Below are positions 2,803 through 60,978 of a stretch of DNA of 64,000 nucleotides, in pieces; the stretch's first letter is position 1, and every line of letters starts with the position of its first letter. This DNA comes from Acidocella sp. (GTDB lineage: Bacteria; Pseudomonadota; Alphaproteobacteria; Acetobacterales; Acetobacteraceae): positions 1-64,000 of the forward strand of contig DAIDEE010000016.1 in assembly GCA_027308685.1 (NCBI GenBank), written 5' to 3'. Made by a program: the position numbers and the translations under genes. The notes below the pieces were generated by a model. It was not told where the DNA came from, did no database searches, and worked only from the letters and a program-made list of their open reading frames with translations.

Positions 2803-5606
2803 CCCGCAAAACCGCCCTTTGGATTGCCGTGCCGGCCAGCATTCTGCTGTTGATCGCGAGCTTGATTTTGGCGCTTCCGAGCCTGGTGTCGTCACCACAA
2901 AACCGGGCGACGATTGAGGGGCTGGCGTCGTCGTTAACGGGCCGGAATGTTCATATCAGCGGTAATCTTTCATTAGCGCTGAAACCGGCGCCGCAGCTTA
3001 TCGCCGGTGACGTCACGATCACCGGCCCCGACGCAGAAGTCATCACAGCTAAATCGCTGACCTTGGACATTGCGCCGGGTGCTTTGCTGCACGGCCAACT
3101 CAGCGCCAGTAGTTTGATGCTGCAATCTCCCACCATCAATTTTCCATGGCCGCTGCCCAATGGTGCCGCGGCGATCGCGCCGCCGCCGTGGCTGGCGGCG
3201 TTGCATGCACAAATCCGTGACGGTCGGATCAGCATTGGCAATCTGATGTTCAGCCAGGTCTCGGCTGATATTTTTACCGGTGCGCAAGGCAGCCTCGCGG
3301 TTTCAGGAAGCGGGATGCTGCAGGGTCAACATGTCACGTTGAGCCTTAGTTTGGGGGCGCTGGATACGACCGGAACCGCGCCACTGACCATTGATGCGAA
3401 AACCGCCAATATGCAGGCGCATTTTTCGGGGATTTTCTCGAGTGAAAATTCCCTGGCGGGCAAAATTTCGCTGACAACTACAGGCACAGGCTGGCTTTCA
3501 GAGGACAGTCACCAGCCGATGGTGGCCACGAGCACGTTGCAAGCCGATCCGGCCGGCTTGCGGATGTCGGACCTTGTGGCAACGCAAGGGCCAGCAAAGC
3601 TCACCGGTGATGCAACTTTCAATTTTGGCAATCCGCAGCTTGATCTTCATCTCATAGGTCACCAACTCAATGTGCGGCTGGCATTCCCAGCGAGTGGCTT
3701 TTCGGCGTTACACGCGATCCCTGTTCATCTAAACCTGAATTTCGATCATTCGATCGTGGCGGGTGCAATGCTGCCAAATATTCAGGCGACCGCAGATATT
3801 GCACAATCGGGTATTTCGGTCAGCGCACTGAGCGCGACCTTACCGGGCAATGGCGTGCTTGGTTTTGCCGGTTCGATGGATCCTTCGGGGATTCTGCATG
3901 GTAAAACGACGTTGACCGCGGATAATTTTGTTGATGCCCTCAATGCTTTTGGGATCCAGGCGCCGCTGCCGAGCGGGTGGCAAACCAACCTGTCGGCAAA
4001 TGTTAGCGGCCCGCTTGACCAGCTTGATGTTGCTGATGTTACCGGAATACTTGGGCCCGCCACGCTGAGCGGGGCGGCACGGCTACGAAGTACGCCAGGG
4101 CATCTGGCAATCAACGGTGCGTGGCACCTCAGCACGTTAGATGTAACCCCGCTGGTGGCAGCGCTGAGCCAGTTCAAGCCTGCTGATAACATATCGGCTG
4201 ATATCGAGTTAACGGCAGACCACGCCAGTTTTGATAAAATTTTAATGACGCATTTTTTGATTGATGCCAGATTTTCAAATCAGCTTGTCGTTCGCAGACT
4301 CACAGCATCGCTTTACAATGGAATGGCGGCTGCCAGTTTCACGGTGGCTACAGGCGGACAGATTTCTTCGGCCCGCGCGTTACTGACAATGCCCTCGGCA
4401 CAGCCTCTCGCGGCACTGCTTCCGGCCGCGCTATCGCCGCCGGTTGCGGTGAGTAACACGCCCTTGGCGGCTCTTATTGAAGCCTCTGGCCCGGCCGACG
4501 CTTTGGCAACCAGCGGCACCCTTACCTTAGGACCGTTTAGCATCACGGCCTCGCCCGTTTTAGATTTGATCCATTGGGCGGTGAAAGGCCCGCTTACCCT
4601 GAGACATCCCAGCGCCATTGCGGCATTTAAGGCCTTCGGCTTACCCGCAAACCTGATCTGGCCAGGGGCTGGTTCGATTTCATTAAGAGCCAATATGGCA
4701 GTTTCCCAAACACATATGGGCCTGACAGATTTTGTGCTCTCCATGGGGGACCTGACGGCTGCCGGAAAATTTTCGATGACGCCGGATTATAAAATCGCCG
4801 CACAGATTGACGCCGATACTTTGGCGCTGCCGCCGCTACCAACTGATCTGTCCGCGCTGTGGGCTGGCGTTGCGGTGGCTGGTGGTAAAATCGATATTTC
4901 AGCGAACCGTGTTTTATATGCCGGCAACCAAATATTCGGGCCCAGTGCAGGGTCGATTACGATGCAGCCGAATGATGATGTGTTCACGATCTCACATGCG
5001 AGTGTCGGCAGCGGCAATATCAGCGGACGTATCTCAGCCACCACCGCTCCGGCAACACCGCCGAGCCTCTCAGCCTCGATGACTCTGAAGGCCCTTGATT
5101 TAACCGGTGTGCATCTGCCCGTTGCGTTTCCGCTTACGCTCCCGAGCGGTATCGCCGATGGGCAGATTAACCTTACCGCCTCGGGATTTTCACCGGCCAC
5201 CTGGGTAGCGACGTTGAATGGGACAGCAACGTCGCAGATCAAGGCGGGCGGTATCACCGGCTTTAATCTCGGCGGGCTTGGTTATGTGCTGCGTTTGCCA
5301 AACCGCGCCACCAGCTTGCATAACGCGTGCACAACCGGTGCGACCGCATTCGACGATTTATCGGTCAATGCCACAGTTGACCATGGGATTCTCAAAATTG
5401 GCAGCGCCAATTTGCAAGGCGGATCAGGTAGCGCTGCGGCAACAGGGACCATTGATCTCCCGGATCAGGCACTTGCCCTCAATCTTCACTTGTTCGCAAA
5501 TGTTGTATCGCCACCAGATATCGGGCTGGCGATTGTGGGCCCTTGGGGGAGTGCGCATAAGGTAGCTGATATCAGAGCCGGATTACGCTGGAAGTCAGCG
5601 CCTTAG
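2799..5606 (+). CDS. AsmA-like envelope protein
   Basis: A 935-residue protein of the AsmA/YhdP/TamB-like group, large periplasmic proteins linked to outer-membrane lipid homeostasis. The ATG at 2799 overlaps the stop of the preceding gene and gives a clean N-terminus: MTRK, then one membrane segment at about residues 5-25 (an Ala/Ile/Leu run). This is followed by an AsmA-type start (GRNVHISGNLSLALKPAPQL) and a long beta-rich repetitive body with many short Gly/Ser/Thr strands. The C-terminal AsmA-like part has the typical TSLHNACTTGATAFDDL and GSGSAAATGTIDLP segments. The frame is open upstream to 2724, but that extension is Arg-rich and overlaps the oxoprolinase frame, so it is not used. 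The link to the oxoprolinase looks transcriptional only. The exact function is unknown. Confidence 0.8.
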   Translation: MTRKTALWIAVPASILLLIASLILALPSLVSSPQNRATIEGLASSLTGRNVHISGNLSLALKPAPQLIAGDVTITGPDAEVITAKSLTLDIAPGALLHGQLSASSLMLQSPTINFPWPLPNGAAAIAPPPWLAALHAQIRDGRISIGNLMFSQVSADIFTGAQGSLAVSGSGMLQGQHVTLSLSLGALDTTGTAPLTIDAKTANMQAHFSGIFSSENSLAGKISLTTTGTGWLSEDSHQPMVATSTLQADPAGLRMSDLVATQGPAKLTGDATFNFGNPQLDLHLIGHQLNVRLAFPASGFSALHAIPVHLNLNFDHSIVAGAMLPNIQATADIAQSGISVSALSATLPGNGVLGFAGSMDPSGILHGKTTLTADNFVDALNAFGIQAPLPSGWQTNLSANVSGPLDQLDVADVTGILGPATLSGAARLRSTPGHLAINGAWHLSTLDVTPLVAALSQFKPADNISADIELTADHASFDKILMTHFLIDARFSNQLVVRRLTASLYNGMAAASFTVATGGQISSARALLTMPSAQPLAALLPAALSPPVAVSNTPLAALIEASGPADALATSGTLTLGPFSITASPVLDLIHWAVKGPLTLRHPSAIAAFKAFGLPANLIWPGAGSISLRANMAVSQTHMGLTDFVLSMGDLTAAGKFSMTPDYKIAAQIDADTLALPPLPTDLSALWAGVAVAGGKIDISANRVLYAGNQIFGPSAGSITMQPNDDVFTISHASVGSGNISGRISATTAPATPPSLSASMTLKALDLTGVHLPVAFPLTLPSGIADGQINLTASGFSPATWVATLNGTATSQIKAGGITGFNLGGLGYVLRLPNRATSLHNACTTGATAFDDLSVNATVDHGILKIGSANLQGGSGSAAATGTIDLPDQALALNLHLFANVVSPPDIGLAIVGPWGSAHKVADIRAGLRWKSAP

Positions 5607-5609
5607 GAT

Positions 5610-6452
5610 CTATGCCCTGAAATCGAGGCCGATATCCAGCACGCGCACCGTATGGGTGAGCCAACCAGCGGAGAGATAATCAACCCCGGTTTCAGCAATG
5701 GCGGGCGCTGTGGCTGGAGAAATCCGCCCTGAGGCTTCAGAGATGGCGCGGCCACCAATGAAAGCGACTGCTTCTCGCAAGCTGGGGAGGTCAAAATTAT
5801 CGAGCAGTACAACATCGACGCCTTCATCGAGGGCTTCGCCTAACTGCATCAGCGAATCCACTTCCAGTTCGATTTTCACCAGATGCCCGGCGGATTTTTT
5901 GGCCGCCCGTAAAACATTGCGGATGCCGCCGGCGATGGCGACGTGGTTATCCTTGATGAGAATCGCGTCATCGAGACCGAAACGATGATTGGCGCCGCCG
6001 CCGCAGCGCACGGCGTATTTTTGGGCAAAGCGCAGACCGGGCATGGTTTTGCGGGTGCAGGTGATGCGGGCTTTGGTATGAGCGATGGCATCGGCGATGC
6101 CGCGCGTGGCGGTAGCGATGCCGGAGAGGTGGCCTAGAAAATTTAACGCGACACGCTCAGCCGACAAAATACCGCGTGAAGGACCCTCGATGGTTGCGAT
6201 AACATCAGTTGGTTGCACACGGGTGCCATCGGCAAGCAGGGGGGTAAATTTGATCGCGGGGTCGATCAGGAAAAATGCGGTGCGGGCAAAATCCAGCCCG
6301 GCGACGACACCAGGCTCGCGTACCTCAAGCGCGCACATGGTGCGGCTGGATGCCGGGATGACGGCCTCGCTGGTGATGTCCCCTGCCCTGCCGATATCTT
6401 CCAGCAATCCGGCCCGCACGGCTGATTCCACGAGTAAATAAGGCAGGCTCAT
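5610..6452 (-). CDS. nadC: Nicotinate-nucleotide pyrophosphorylase (quinolinate phosphoribosyltransferase)
   Basis: Converts quinolinate and PRPP to nicotinate mononucleotide, the third step of de novo NAD synthesis. The 280-residue length is typical. Visible family signatures are LNFLGHLSGIAT in the N-terminal half, the substrate-binding TCTRKTMPGLR, and GGGANHRFGLDDAILIKDNH. These are followed by the barrel motifs IELEVDS and VVLLDNFD and a C-terminal EASGRISPA and DYLSAGWLTHT. The ATG overlaps the nadB stop (ATGA), so translation is probably coupled to nadB. It is the last gene of the nadA-nadB-nadC operon and stops three bases from the convergent AsmA-like gene. Confidence 0.95.
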   Translation of the reverse strand: MSLPYLLVESAVRAGLLEDIGRAGDITSEAVIPASSRTMCALEVREPGVVAGLDFARTAFFLIDPAIKFTPLLADGTRVQPTDVIATIEGPSRGILSAERVALNFLGHLSGIATATRGIADAIAHTKARITCTRKTMPGLRFAQKYAVRCGGGANHRFGLDDAILIKDNHVAIAGGIRNVLRAAKKSAGHLVKIELEVDSLMQLGEALDEGVDVVLLDNFDLPSLREAVAFIGGRAISEASGRISPATAPAIAETGVDYLSAGWLTHTVRVLDIGLDFRA

Positions 6453-7915
6453 GCAGCGATTTTCATGGCGGGGAGATCTCGGATATTGGTGATGAAAGAA
6501 TGCGCCAACACCGGATTGGTCACCGGGTAATCGGTGCGGAACTGCCCGCCCCGGCTCTCGATGCGGCGCAAGGCGGCTTGCGCCATCAGCAGGGCCAGCA
6601 GCGCGGCGTTGGAGGTTTGCGCGAGCGGGGTTAGTTGCGTGATGGCACGGGTGAGCCCCTCAGCGGAGCGCAAAATACCCAGGTTTTCGCTGCAAATATG
6701 ACGGATCTCGGCCAAACGATCCGTCGTTTGGCGTTGATGCGTGAGCAATGGCGTGTCGGCCAACACACGAGCATGGCGGGATGCGATGGCAGCGGCGGCA
6801 TCCCGGCCTGTGACCATGGCTTCGAGGAGCGAATTGCTGGCCAGACGGTTGGCGCCATGCAGCCCGGTCGCGGCGGCCTCACCGCAGACGAACAGACCGT
6901 GGACGCTGCTCTCGCTATGCGCATCCACCGCGATACCGCCCATGTGATAGTGCGCAGCGGGACGTACCGGAATCGGCTGGGTGGCGGGGTCGATGAAGTT
7001 TTCGCGGCAGACCGAAAAAATGCTAGGAAATTTATCCGCGGGTACATCGCGGGCATCGAGAAACACGGCCTCGCCCGCAGCATATTTTGCCGCAACGGCG
7101 CGAGCCACAATGTCGCGCGCGGCGAGGTCGCCGCCGTTCATGAAGGGCTTGCCGGACGTATCCACAAATACCGCACCTTCGCCGCGCAGAGCTTCGCTGA
7201 TCAGCGGCATCGGGTCCAGCCCACAGGCGAAAGCTGTTGGATGGAACTGCATAAATTCAATATCGCGCAAATCAGCCCCGGCCCTGGCGGCAAGTGCTAA
7301 GCCGACACCGGTGGCGGTGGGCGGGTTGGTGGTGTGGGCGAACAGCCCGCCGACACCGCCAGTGGCGATGATGACGCTGGACGTTGGCAGTAAACTTACA
7401 TGATCGCCAACGCGAAATTGCACGCCTTGCACGGCGTTATCTTTCACAAACACGTGCTCGGCCACCGCCTCTTCAATGACAGTGATGCTGGGGGTGGTGC
7501 GAACGGCGTTGATCAGCACCCGCATCACTTCAGCGCCGGTGGCGTCCTTGGCGTGCACGATGCGGCGGCGCGAATGCGCGGCTTCCAGCCCGAGGGCTAG
7601 ACTGCCATCCGGGTTACGGCCGAAATCTGCGCCATATTTCAGCAAAGTTTCAATCACCCATGGCCCGCCGGCAATGATGCGGGCGACAGTAACGGGATCG
7701 CACAATCCGGCACCGGCGGCGATGGTATCGGCAATATGCAAGTCGATACTGTCATCCAGCCCAACAACCGCGGCGATGCCGCCTTGCGCCCAGCCGCTAG
7801 CGGCATTGCCACCCAGGCTGCCACCACAGAGCAGCACGGTTTTTTGCGGGGCCAGACAAAGCGCTGCCATCAGCCCGGCAGCGCCGCCGCCAATAATCAC
7901 CGGCTGGTTGTTCAT
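6449..7915 (-). CDS. nadB: L-aspartate oxidase
   Basis: An FAD enzyme that oxidises L-aspartate to iminoaspartate, the substrate for NadA. The 488-residue protein has the N-terminal dinucleotide-binding motif ([13 protein letters not shown], residues about 7-19) and the conserved [11 protein letters not shown]. It also has [14 protein letters not shown], the active-site region [10 protein letters not shown], and a C-terminal FAD segment [16 protein letters not shown]. It is slightly shorter at the C-terminus than the enterobacterial enzyme (about 540). It overlaps nadA upstream and nadC downstream by four bases each, which indicates a tightly coupled operon. Confidence 0.95.
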
Positions 7916-56081: not shown

Positions 56082-56945
56082 CTAGGGCCATTTTACCTCT
56101 GGCGGCAGCGACATCAGGATCGCCTCAGTGTTCCCGCCCGTTTTAAGGCCAAACGTGGTGCCGCGGTCATATAACAGGTTGAATTCGACATAGCGGCCAC
56201 GGCGGATCAATTGCGCCTCGCGCTCCTCGGGGGACCAGACTTCTGCCATCCGGCGCCGCACGATGGCCGGATAAGCCGCCAAAAACGCCTCCCCTACATC
56301 ACGAGTGAATTTGAAGTCGGCTTCAACATGGCCGGTGTCCAGGTAATCATAAAAAATACCGCCCGCACCGCGTGGTTCGTTGCGATGCGGCAGAAAAAAA
56401 TATTCGTCGCACCATTTTTTGAATTTTTCATAGTAAGTTGGGTCGTTTTTGTCGCAGGCCGCTTGATACGCCGCATGAAAAAACGCTGCATCCTCAGCCG
56501 CTTGCGGGGTGCCCGGTTGCAGCGGGGTTAAATCCCCCCCACCGCCAAACCAGCCTTTGCCAGTCACGATCATCCTGGTGTTCATATGAACGGCCGGCAC
56601 TCTGGGGCTGCGCATATGGGCAACCAGGCTGATCCCCGCGGCCCAGAACTGGCCATTTTCGGTCGCACCGCGCATCTGTTTGGCAAAGTCCGGCGAAAAC
56701 TTGCCGGCCACGGTGGATATATTTACGCCCACCTTCTCAAACACCTGACCACGCATCACGCTCATCAGCCCACCGCCGCCTTCCGGGCGCTCCCAAGGGG
56801 TGCGAACGAACCTGCCGGGGTTTGGCCCAGCGTCGTCCTCGATAGCTTCAAAAGCCCCACATATCCGATCACGCAGTTCGGCAAACCAGGCTGAGGCGGC
56901 AGGTTTCAGGAGTTCATGGGGAGGGGGTTCAGTTATTTCTTTCAT
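56082..56945 (-). CDS. hemF: Oxygen-dependent coproporphyrinogen III oxidase
   Basis: Converts coproporphyrinogen III to protoporphyrinogen IX in haem synthesis using oxygen. 287 residues from the ATG at 56945 (MKEITEPPP). Family signatures are [39 protein letters not shown] and [27 protein letters not shown] (in parts). The C-terminal [30 protein letters not shown] is also present (in parts). A much longer open frame upstream crosses the divergent petA promoter region and is not family-like. Aerobic haem supply beside the cytochrome genes is sensible. Confidence 0.95.
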
Positions 56946-57076: not shown

Positions 57077-57637
57077 ATGGCAAATGCGGCGGTACATGCG
57101 GTTGATGACGAGGTGGAAGCCCCGGCAAAGCGCGATTTTTTGAAAATCCTCACCGTTTCGGCTGGTGCCGTGGCATTGGGGGCTACAGCTTGGCCGTTTA
57201 TTAACGCGCTGAACCCCACCGCCGCCGAGCTTGCGGTGTCGAACCCCATTATTGATGTTGGCGCGATTGCACCGAACACCGCAATGCGCATCGTGTGGCT
57301 CGGTCAACCGATTTACATCCGAAAACTCACCCCCCAGCAAATTGCTGACAATGAGTATATTGTGCCCGATACTCTGCCCGACCCCGCCAGCTACACGGAC
57401 CGAGTGAAGCCAGGCTATGAGAGTTTTGTGGTGGTGGTGGGCCTGAATACGGGCATCTCCTGCGAGTTGCTGGGCAACAGCCCGACCGACCCACGCGGCC
57501 CGTTCGATGGCTGGAGCTGCCCGTGCGATGGCAGCGTGTACGACCCGTTGGGGCGTGTGCGCGGTGGCCCGGCCCGCAAAAATCTAGCGATTCCGCGCTT
57601 TACCTTTCTCAGCGATACGCAAATTCAGTTCGGCTAA
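57077..57637 (+). CDS. petA: Rieske subunit homologue of bc1 complex, iron-sulfur ligands lost
   Basis: 186 residues with the architecture of a bc1 Rieske subunit: a Tat-like anchor ([19 protein letters not shown], with KR in place of RR), a hinge, and a C-terminal Rieske domain ending [10 protein letters not shown]. The cluster motifs are degenerate. The first, normally CTHLGC, reads C129-E-L-L-G-N134. The second, normally CPCHGS, reads C148-P-C-D151-G-S153. Both histidine ligands (to Leu131 and Asp151) and one disulfide cysteine (to Asn134) are absent; both ligand cysteines remain. A normal 2Fe-2S Rieske cluster is therefore unlikely. The rest, including [16 protein letters not shown], is well conserved. 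The ATG at 57077 has AGGA seven bases upstream. First gene of petABC; divergent from hemF. Confidence 0.88.
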
Positions 57638-57652
57638 GCAGGAACCTTGAAC

Positions 57653-58774
57653 ATGTCTGACCAAACCAAACCCTGGCTGGAATCCCGGCTTCCCCTGGCT
57701 GCTTCGTTTCGGGCTCATGTGAGCGAGCGACAGCTTGCCCACAACCGGCCATACCTTGCGGCCCTTGGCACGCTGATTGTCGGGACGCTCATATTCCTGG
57801 CGCTCTCGGGTTTTGTGCTGTCACTTTATTATGTTGCCGTGGAGGGTGACGCCTATAATTCAATCCAGGTAATCATGCGCGGCGTGAATGATGGATGGTT
57901 GATCCGTGGCTTCCATGCCACCGGCACCACAATGCTATTTGGCCTGGTTTATCTGTCTATATTCCGCGCCCTGATAACCGGCGCGTACCGGGTGCCCGGT
58001 GAGCTTGTTTGGATGCTGAAACTGATTTTTCTGCTCATGATCTTGTTAATTGGTTACTTGGGCTATGCCCTTGAGGATGGCGCCGTCAGCTATTGGAGCC
58101 TGCATCAGGTTACTTTGGCCGGCGCTCAGCTCTCGAGCTTTCCAGGCAACATCTCAAACTGGTTCTTCGGCGGGCCGGCTGGTCAGGGTACCCTGGCAAG
58201 ACTGGCTGTCATGCATGGTTTACTCGCGTTCATGGCCTTTGGCGTGCTGGCTTTGCATTACTACGCCAAGCAAGCCATTGCGGTGGCACCCAAACGGACC
58301 GTGAGCCTCCACCCCTACTATACCAGCCACCATTTTGTCGCTGCAGCAGTTTTTGTGCTGTTGTTCGCCGTGTTGGTGTTTTATGCCCCGCATCTGGGTG
58401 AAAACCCTCTGAATGCCGTTGCTGCTAATCCGCTGGTGGTGCCCACTGTTGTAACGCCGCCTTGGTACCTGCTGCCTGTGTCTGCTTTCTCAACGATGTT
58501 CCCGGGCGCCAAAGGCGGTATTATCGGTGTGATCGCTGCCTTTGCCGTGTTGTTTGCAGTTCCTTGGTTGGACCGTTCGCCGAAAGATGCCTCGCCGGGT
58601 TTGTTTTATAAATTCCTCGTGGTTGTTTTGGGACTCGATGTGTTCGCCCTTGGATGCACGACGGCTGACGGCCCTTCGCTGATTAATTCCATCCTGACCA
58701 CCGTTTTCATCGGGTGGTATTTCCTGCACTTTTTGGTGCTCACCCCACTCGCTACTGCGAGGGAGTCAAAATAA
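57653..58774 (+). CDS. petB: Cytochrome b subunit homologue of bc1 complex, Qo and haem-bH motifs altered
   Basis: 373 residues with eight to nine membrane segments, gaplessly alignable to bacterial cytochrome b through helix B (RGFHATGTTMLFGLVYLSIF). Haem-bL ligands are present (His88, His188). The haem-bH pair is broken: His202 is present, but the helix-B ligand is Ser102. The Qo-site PEWY reads PPWY (269-272), losing the proton-accepting Glu, and the PWGQ region reads EDGA (141-144). Conserved segments such as GGPAGQGTLARL, VPWLDRSP and HPYYT remain. The protein is also shorter than typical (about 430). The ATG at 57653 has AGGA upstream. The stop overlaps petC (TAATG). Confidence 0.88.
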   Translation: MSDQTKPWLESRLPLAASFRAHVSERQLAHNRPYLAALGTLIVGTLIFLALSGFVLSLYYVAVEGDAYNSIQVIMRGVNDGWLIRGFHATGTTMLFGLVYLSIFRALITGAYRVPGELVWMLKLIFLLMILLIGYLGYALEDGAVSYWSLHQVTLAGAQLSSFPGNISNWFFGGPAGQGTLARLAVMHGLLAFMAFGVLALHYYAKQAIAVAPKRTVSLHPYYTSHHFVAAAVFVLLFAVLVFYAPHLGENPLNAVAANPLVVPTVVTPPWYLLPVSAFSTMFPGAKGGIIGVIAAFAVLFAVPWLDRSPKDASPGLFYKFLVVVLGLDVFALGCTTADGPSLINSILTTVFIGWYFLHFLVLTPLATARESK

Positions 58775-59499
58775 TGAAATTTGGCATCTCCGCCGCCGCC
58801 TTGCTGGCGGCTACCCTCGCCTTTGGTTCAACCGCACAGGCCGAGGACACCCTCAGCCCGCTGCACTGGCAGTCACAAGGAACCTTCGGCTCCTACGATA
58901 AAGCCGCCGTGCAGCGTGGTTTCCTCGTTTATCAGACCGTTTGCGCCAGTTGCCATTCAGCGAACGCGCTACATTACCGAGACCTGACTGCCCTGGGCTT
59001 GACCACCGCGCAGGTTGCCAGCATCGCCGCCGGCATCAAATTGGCGACTGGGCCAGCCACATTGGATGACCATTTCAAAAACCCCTACCCCAACCCGCAG
59101 GCTGCCGCGGCGGCCTTCAACGGCGCGATTCCCCCTGACCTCTCAAACATCGTTGCCGCCCGGCCAAAGGGCACAGAATATATTTATAATCTGCTGACCG
59201 GATACCAGGCAGCCTCTGCTGACATCACGCTCATGGCAAATCATTATTACAATGCTGCCTACCCGGGTAACCAGATTGCGATGCCGCCGCCCTTGAAGGA
59301 TGATGCGGTCACCTATGCCGATGGCACCAAGGCAACAACCGCGCAGGAAGCCTCAGACGTCGCCGCCTTCCTGACCTGGGCTTCCGACCCAAACCTGGAT
59401 GCCCGCAAGCAAATTGGCCTGCGGGCGGTGATTTTTCTGATTTTCATGACGCTGCTGGCGATTGCGACCAAACGCAAAATATGGCGCGGCGCGGCTTAA
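58774..59499 (+). CDS. petC: Cytochrome c1
   Basis: 241 residues. It has a signal peptide (cleavage near AQAED, about 23) and the haem c site C57-A-S-C60-H61. HWQSQGTFGSYDKAAVQRGFLVYQTVC and IPPDLSNIVAARPKGTEYIYNLLTGY are typical (in parts). The axial Met170 lies in QIAMPPPL, and a C-terminal anchor (AVIFLIFMTLLAIATKRKIW) ends the protein. All haem-binding and anchoring features are intact, in contrast to the two preceding subunits. The ATG shares bases with the petB stop (TAATG). Confidence 0.94.
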   Translation: MKFGISAAALLAATLAFGSTAQAEDTLSPLHWQSQGTFGSYDKAAVQRGFLVYQTVCASCHSANALHYRDLTALGLTTAQVASIAAGIKLATGPATLDDHFKNPYPNPQAAAAAFNGAIPPDLSNIVAARPKGTEYIYNLLTGYQAASADITLMANHYYNAAYPGNQIAMPPPLKDDAVTYADGTKATTAQEASDVAAFLTWASDPNLDARKQIGLRAVIFLIFMTLLAIATKRKIWRGAA

Positions 59500-59505
59500 C
59501 GACAG

Positions 59506-60387
59506 ATGACTGAAAGCATCACACCTGTCATCGGCATCATCGGTGGCTCCGGGCTCTATGATATCGAAGGCCTGACCGACACACATTGGGAAAACATTGA
59601 GTCGCCCTGGGGCGCGCCTTCCGACAAACTGCTGATCGGCCAGTTCCATGGCACCAAGGTAGTGTTTTTACCGCGCCATGGGCGCGGCCACCGGCTCTCA
59701 CCCTCGGAGCTGAATTATCGCGCCAATATCGACGTTTTGAAGCGCGTTGGGGTCACTGACATTTTGTCGCTCTCGGCGGTTGGTTCCCTGAAAGCTGAAT
59801 TGCCGCCTGGGCATTTTGTTATCGTTGATCAATTTATCGACCGCAGCTTCGCGCGGGAAAAGACATTTTTCGGCAGCGGCTGTGTTGCCCATGTCTCGAT
59901 GGCGCACCCGGTTTGCCCGCGGCTTGGAGATGCGCTGGAAGCCTCCGCCCGCGAACTTGGACTGCCAGTGACGCGCGGTGGCACCTACCTGGTGATGGAA
60001 GGACCACAATTCTCGACTCTGGCGGAGAGCAATCTGTACCGCTCCTGGGATTGCTCTGTGATCGGCATGACCAATATGCCAGAAGCTAAACTGGCCCGTG
60101 AAGCCGAGATTTGTTATGCGACTGTCGCCATGGTGACAGACTTCGATTGCTGGCACGAGGACCATGATGCCGTAACCGTGGATGCTGTGGTAAAGGTTTT
60201 GTTGGGTAATGCAGATAAAGCCCGCAACCTGGTTAAAGCCGTGCTCCCTAAAATCGGCGCCGAACGCGGCCTTTGCCCGGCCGGTTGCGACCGCGCCTTG
60301 GAATACGCACTGATTACCGCGCCCGACGCACGTGACCCTATGGCTTTGGCAAAGTTAAGCGCTGTGGCAGGGCGCGTTCTGAGCTGA
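59506..60387 (+). CDS. mtnP: S-methyl-5'-thioadenosine phosphorylase
   Basis: Splits methylthioadenosine to adenine and 5-methylthioribose-1-phosphate for methionine salvage. 293 residues, type-2 purine nucleoside phosphorylase fold. It has IGIIGGSGLYDIEGL at the N-terminus, then LPRHGRGHRLSPSELNYRANI and LSAVGSLKAELPPGHFVIVDQFIDR. The active-site region is YLVMEGPQFSTLAESNLYRSWDCSVIGMTNMPEAKLAREAEICYA (in parts). It starts six bases after petC, so it is co-transcribed with petABC, but it is functionally unrelated. Confidence 0.94.
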   Translation: MTESITPVIGIIGGSGLYDIEGLTDTHWENIESPWGAPSDKLLIGQFHGTKVVFLPRHGRGHRLSPSELNYRANIDVLKRVGVTDILSLSAVGSLKAELPPGHFVIVDQFIDRSFAREKTFFGSGCVAHVSMAHPVCPRLGDALEASARELGLPVTRGGTYLVMEGPQFSTLAESNLYRSWDCSVIGMTNMPEAKLAREAEICYATVAMVTDFDCWHEDHDAVTVDAVVKVLLGNADKARNLVKAVLPKIGAERGLCPAGCDRALEYALITAPDARDPMALAKLSAVAGRVLS

Positions 60388-60576
60388 GGTCAGCGGGCCG
60401 GCTGGCCTGATGGAACCAGAGCCTGGGTAGCTGTTACCTGCTAACTATAAATTATACATTCAGTCAACAACCAAAACTTGTGTCTCTCAGATAAACGCTG
60501 GCTGGTGCATCTCAGCCATGAAATCGCCGTTTTGTAATCCTACATGGAGACTCGGTCCGAAAATTTTGGAGACGAC

Positions 60577-60978
60577 ATGGAAAAGAAAACAGCGGGATTG
60601 TTGGGCGCGTTAGCCGGATTAGCAACAATAGGCTCAGCGCAGGCGGCTACGAACTATGAACCAAACGCGGCAGACGCCCTGCGTGTGTCTTCATATGCTG
60701 AGCTTCTGACGCCCATTCCCAACGCGGTGGCGTTGTTAAAAGCCAGCGATGCTCTGCTTCTCAGGCAAGCTAACGAGCGCAAAGCCGCAGGGGTTCAACT
60801 GGCGCAGGACTATTACAACCAGCAAAATGACCACCATCATCACCATCACCACCATCACCACCAGGAGTACGTGCCGCCACCACCGCCGTATTATCCTCCC
60901 CATCATCACCACCATCATCATCACCAGCAGGGCGCTGTGATTGTGGTTCCAGGTTTAGGTGTCTTCCAGACAAACTGA
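60577..60978 (+). CDS. Exported histidine-rich protein
   Basis: A 133-residue protein with a signal peptide (MEKKTAGLLGALAGLATIGSAQA) and a helical region. The C-terminal half has two His runs: about ten residues (preceded by ND) and eight residues, separated by QEYVPPPPPYYPP. The DNA is a low-complexity CAY repeat at about 60830-60927. Such His runs usually bind Ni, Zn, Cu or Co. A periplasmic metal-buffering or metal-supply role is an inference. No known family. The ATG at 60577 has GGAG six bases upstream; the ATG at 60544 is less likely. Confidence 0.8.
   Translation: MEKKTAGLLGALAGLATIGSAQAATNYEPNAADALRVSSYAELLTPIPNAVALLKASDALLLRQANERKAAGVQLAQDYYNQQNDHHHHHHHHHHQEYVPPPPPYYPPHHHHHHHHQQGAVIVVPGLGVFQTN

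Follow-up and report, generated by a model that had tools for sequence, protein, structure and literature searches.

The closest described system is the "deranged bc1" that Degli Esposti et al. 2023 (PMC10715153) reported in Acidocella and Acidiphilium, in which the Rieske protein is without three or four of its cluster ligands and keeps its disulfide Cys pair, the haem bH ligands of cytochrome b are lost, and cytochrome c1 is intact. According to that work, the Rieske gene is absent from Acidiphilium, and bH loss and Rieske ligand loss are always associated; its authors proposed that the complex serves complex I structurally and that iron-oxidising cytochromes provide a bypass. With regard to the Qo glutamate, the E295V single mutant of Rhodobacter capsulatus remains functional, and there are organisms that naturally have no protonable residue at this position (PMC10583091).

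Here we describe a bc1 operon in a 64,000-nucleotide stretch of DNA from Acidocella sp. (the window), together with its counterparts in both genera. The core finding, a deranged bc1, is already known, its main points having been published in PMC10715153.

The pet operon of the window

The operon lies on the plus strand and consists of petA (57077..57637), petB (57653..58774) and petC (58774..59499). It is preceded by the divergent neighbour hemF (56082..56945, minus strand, start inferred), our locus marker in both genera, and petC is followed by a gene for an mtaP-type nucleoside phosphorylase (59506..60387, plus strand). This hemF-pet-mtaP neighbourhood is common to Acidocella and Acidiphilium. 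Beyond it, positions 60544-60978 of the window encode a small protein, apparently secreted, that contains two long runs of His and weakly matches a zinc-uptake family, below the cut-off. An Rfam search of the window gave no RNA match.

The petB ORF is uninterrupted across 373 aa, and its product is a cytochrome b by Pfam (PF00033, 5.1e-29; PF00032, 2.2e-14), and it matches solved bc1 cytochromes b along its whole length. The predicted model has the eight-helix fold that, together with the Pfam matches, characterises the family, and it superimposes on solved bc1 cytochromes b with TM-scores of 0.85-0.89; since the models of cytochrome b and Rieske were built from the family's own alignments, they show the fold, not cofactors.

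Residues were assigned by aligning the protein with 15 intact cytochromes b from Alphaproteobacteria, to which its helix B aligns free of gaps. This places Ser102 (57956..57958) at the position of the first haem bH His, as the original prediction had held. The same alignment confirmed its reading of both Qo-site motifs, with PPWY (269-272; 58457..58468) replacing PEWY and EDGA (141-144; 58073..58084) replacing PWGQ with only the Gly kept, and the presence of the haem bL ligands His88 (57914..57916) and His188 (58214..58216) and of His202 (58256..58258) at the second bH position. The protein thus has a bis-His pair for bL and none for bH. Additionally, Qi residues are changed, with His replaced by Gln207 and the Lys-Asp pair by His226-His227 (58328..58333). 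All of these codons are on the plus strand.

The Rieske protein encoded by petA is similarly affected. In a gap-free alignment, three of its four cluster ligands are replaced (Cys by Asn139, His by Gly141 and His by Asp166; residues numbered in the ORF counted from 57029), while Cys163, the fourth ligand, is retained together with the Cys144/Cys165 disulfide pair. Damage in both redox subunits, another element of the original prediction, is thus borne out. The model nevertheless still has the Rieske fold, matching the bovine soluble fragment 1rie with a TM-score of 0.95 (by target) and an rmsd of 1.4 Å, and NCBIfam still calls the ligand-less protein a true equivalog. In practice, this call means that automatic metabolic models will assign to these bacteria a bc1 enzyme that they lack. 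In the petC product, cytochrome c1, CASCH and the Met ligand are both present.

A second, intact bc1 in the same genome was considered and ruled out. The whole window genome has a single cytochrome b and a single proteobacterial Rieske, the latter being the ligand-less product of the window petA, and there is therefore no intact spare complex. Each of 24 further genomes of the window's genus likewise has one cytochrome b. The close relatives of the Rieske protein from named genomes are Acidocella.

A functional Q-cycle enzyme has the Rieske ligands (two Cys, two His) and the catalytic residues of Qo and Qi; this locus has neither set. From its residues, a Q-cycle is predicted to be impossible, for want of a bH pair and of Rieske cluster ligands and with an altered Qi site. 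The claim that classical turnover is impossible therefore stands on these grounds, but not on that of an indispensable Qo glutamate: loss of this residue by itself would not exclude a Q-cycle, given that E295V is functional in R. capsulatus (PMC10583091).

For terminal oxidases, the window genome has a single aa3 cytochrome c oxidase, in which both CoxA and CoxB score above cut-off, and a pair of bd quinol oxidases. The bd oxidases provide an outlet for quinol, so that cytochrome c must receive its electrons by another route. Two loci of the same genome encode candidates. One, on contig C66 of about 87 kb (L195, 949-1890), specifies a dihaem cytochrome c of the SoxA/TsdA type, which might supply cytochrome c with electrons. 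The other, on contig C38 (L196, 53-1812), specifies a 447-aa mono-haem protein that resembles, by eye, outer-membrane Cyc2 and adjoins a 130-aa cytochrome c; it has no Pfam or NCBIfam match, and the pair is likewise a candidate reductant.

Site variation and selection in the two genera

Among roughly 60 cytochrome b loci sampled across the order, the deranged form was found only in Acidocella and in genus g43. We identify the latter as Acidiphilium, since a plasmid of one g43 genome is 100% identical to a plasmid of A. multivorum AIU301. Acidocella and Acidiphilium together form one clade in each of three trees, those of cytochrome b, c1 and Rieske. Outside these two genera, a cytochrome b of genus g46 (L114, genome G122) has PAWY for PEWY, with haem ligands and Rieske intact, and in genus g29 many genomes (e.g. 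G124, G135, G080, G054) have a second cytochrome b gene; those second copies that were fetched retain all four haem His and PEWY.

We compared 46 cytochromes b, 35 from Acidocella and 11 from Acidiphilium. The deranged state is present in all 35 Acidocella sequences, isolates among them, and an orthologue in which PEWY or the bH pair is intact, a finding that would have told against the original prediction, was looked for and not found among these 35. In all 46 sequences, Pro replaces the PEWY Glu and is followed by an invariant Trp-Tyr (46/46), and a Thr to Ser52 change is fixed in both genera, as is Glu to Pro. Likewise, none of the 46 retains the Qi Asp (D252 in R. capsulatus). No sequence has both bH His together. 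The second of them, His202 in the window, is His in 10/35 Acidocella and 0/11 Acidiphilium; the first is occupied in Acidocella by many different residues, and never by His alongside the second. Since the bH site varies freely across Acidocella, the retained His202 is best read, from this comparison, as inherited by descent and as no sign of function. The bL pair, in contrast, is retained in 45/46 sequences (His88 in 46/46, His188 in 45/46).

Ligand losses were mapped on a tree made without cytochrome b. The two bH His were lost 12 and 5 times if His was never regained, and under plain parsimony they changed at least 6 and at least 3 times. The corresponding figures for the two bL His are 0 and 1 losses.

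The original prediction had suggested dN/dS across orthologues as a check, and had taken relaxation of constraint over the entire gene as a sign against it. By pairwise counting, the dN/dS of cytochrome b in close pairs is about 0.06-0.46, and so below 1, but constraint is strongly relaxed. The ratio exceeds that of hemF (mostly 0.04-0.15) in most pairs, and cytochrome b dN is raised. Similarity is also lower for cytochrome b than for c1 in 550/561 Acidocella pairs, as against 0/105 pairs of intact alphaproteobacterial sequences, which indicates that the relaxation is specific to cytochrome b. Positions invariant in the outgroup are kept at 27/109 (about 25%) in cytochrome b and at 22/30 in c1; with so few kept, the two retained bL His are, taken alone, weak evidence of selection for haem. 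These comparisons point to a cytochrome b that is strongly relaxed yet still under purifying selection, and to c1 and Rieske proteins that are less affected. They also rule out a pseudogene or a sequencing or assembly error, the state being common to 35 Acidocella species, with open ORFs and dN/dS below 1.

Intermediates in Acidiphilium

The Acidiphilium operons bear on the order in which these features were lost. In Acidiphilium G189 (L152), the Rieske ORF (833-1469) has all four cluster ligands, although the potential-raising hydrogen-bond positions are changed (Ser to Ala, Tyr to Phe). The cytochrome b beside it is without the PEWY Glu and without both bH ligands, which argues that the damage to Qo, bH and Qi preceded the loss of Rieske ligands. 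If ligands were never regained, the common ancestor would have combined a ligand-competent Rieske with a cytochrome b that had already lost the PEWY Glu.

Four other Acidiphilium have a full-length Rieske head from which the ligands are gone. In the remaining 6/11 (L153, L154, L155, L158, L160, L162), the Rieske protein is reduced to its N-terminal transmembrane anchor, in an ORF of roughly 45-80 aa with its stop just before petB. In the closest anchor pair, L155/L160, 14 synonymous and 4 non-synonymous changes were counted (P = 3e-5 against neutrality); for L153/L154 the synonymous excess is not significant (P = 0.06). The anchor-only L158 and the full-length L156 are sisters (bootstrap 100), so that the head was lost at least twice; we count at least two deletions and not three, since the position of G189 within Acidiphilium has a bootstrap of about 50. 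A TIGR01416 search found no Rieske in Acidiphilium G108 and G187. However, our own profile, together with inspection of upstream frames, placed an anchor or a full-length form before petB in 11/11 operons, and we therefore rejected the view that the Rieske gene is missing from Acidiphilium.

Further losses go beyond the Rieske gene. The Met region of c1 is also deleted in three Acidiphilium (G191, G193, G187), in which the bL pair stays. In Acidiphilium G198 (L187, about 5435-7322; genome 99% complete), petABC is cleanly gone and hemF abuts mtaP. The replacement of Glu by Pro in both genera, the intact ligands in G189, the several separate bH losses and the loss of the operon in G198 together indicate sequential decay, and the proposal of a coordinated shift in what the complex as a whole does is not supported as worded.

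Possible reasons for retention, and known systems

We consider it rather probable that the operon encodes a Q-cycle-dead bc1, held by weak selection as a c1/bL membrane scaffold and decaying stepwise. The three pet proteins would still assemble into a membrane complex, and the useful remainder would be a scaffold that keeps c1, perhaps with haem bL, close to the aa3 oxidase and the cytochrome c pool. The bd oxidases (elsewhere bo3) would have taken over the oxidation of quinol, and cytochrome c would be reduced by other enzymes. Decay would have proceeded from the Qo, bH and Qi sites to the Rieske cluster, the Rieske head, the c1 Met loop and lastly the whole operon, the membrane scaffold and one haem site having lasted longest. 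Such a graded series, ending in complete loss, would also be expected of a remnant that has no function and is slowly vanishing, its ORFs surviving because the decay is recent. The freely varying bH ligand sites and the raised dN of cytochrome b agree with this idea, but we regard it as unlikely, since dN/dS is well below 1, open frames persist across 35 Acidocella species, with cytochromes b that share 51% identity on average, the c1 and Rieske folds are conserved, and Rieske anchors persist after the head has been lost. The retained bL pair and invariant PWY, on the other hand, count against a scaffold and could reflect a residual or new electron-transfer role. A possibility to which we give distinctly less weight than to the decaying scaffold is that selection in both genera actively preserves a minimal b-c1 assembly, with bL and c1 as its only haems, for a task outside the Q-cycle, for example with c1 docked as electron entry to the aa3 oxidase; the Rieske protein, in six Acidiphilium a lone transmembrane anchor of roughly 45-80 aa, would then serve purely as a structural subunit that holds the assembly together. 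It is quite improbable that the complex is a changed yet active redox device in which bL and c1 carry electrons, be it to the aa3 oxidase from some donor in the periplasm, in quinol sensing or in superoxide formation at bL. No carrier between bL and c1 is known that could stand in for the Rieske cluster, and some Acidiphilium have lost the c1 Met region while the bL pair stays, even though the near-universal bL pair (45/46), the intact c1 haem and Met in Acidocella, the two replacements fixed in both genera (Pro for Glu, Ser52 for Thr), and a kept aa3 oxidase that is predicted to be functional are all compatible with such a device.

The dead complex might instead be retained because complex I needs complex III for its stability in a supercomplex, as put forward by Degli Esposti et al. 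2023 (PMC10715153), who cite a precedent in Paracoccus. Complex I is indeed present in 17/17 Acidocella and 11/11 Acidiphilium tested that have the deranged operon. However, G198 has complex I and haem-copper oxidases without cytochrome b and c1, and in 12 further family members, too, complex I occurs with neither cytochrome b nor c1. Dependence of complex I is therefore at most lineage-specific; as a general reason for retention it is unsupported by this co-occurrence test, and we consider it an improbable explanation.

The two genera preserve surviving intermediates of a central respiratory enzyme that evolution has dismantled stepwise, and they separate the requirements for the complex to exist in the membrane from those for turnover. 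Missing from PMC10715153, as far as its main text shows, are the Rieske anchors without a head, the intermediate with intact ligands and the empty hemF-mtaP site. That main text also lacks the Glu to Pro change of both genera and the very word PEWY, and a literature search on PEWY with PPWY found nothing.

The window operon shares with the published deranged bc1 (PMC10715153) its genus, the missing bH and Rieske ligands, the kept disulfide Cys and the intact c1. The rule that bH loss goes with Rieske ligand loss is true for the window but false for Acidiphilium G189 (L152), and Acidiphilium, there reported to be without the Rieske gene, here has it as an anchor or in full length in 11/11 operons. 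With the canonical alphaproteobacterial bc1 (Rhodobacter capsulatus/sphaeroides) the window shares the fold, the operon order, the bL ligands, c1 and the Tat-anchored Rieske fold; it differs in having no bH pair, PEWY Glu, PWGQ, Qi Lys-Asp or Rieske ligands. Comparable lesions, made or found singly, are known from Qo and Qi mutants of R. capsulatus and from b6f without a bH ligand. These keep the Rieske cluster and their activity, whereas the window operon combines all of the lesions, and does so naturally.
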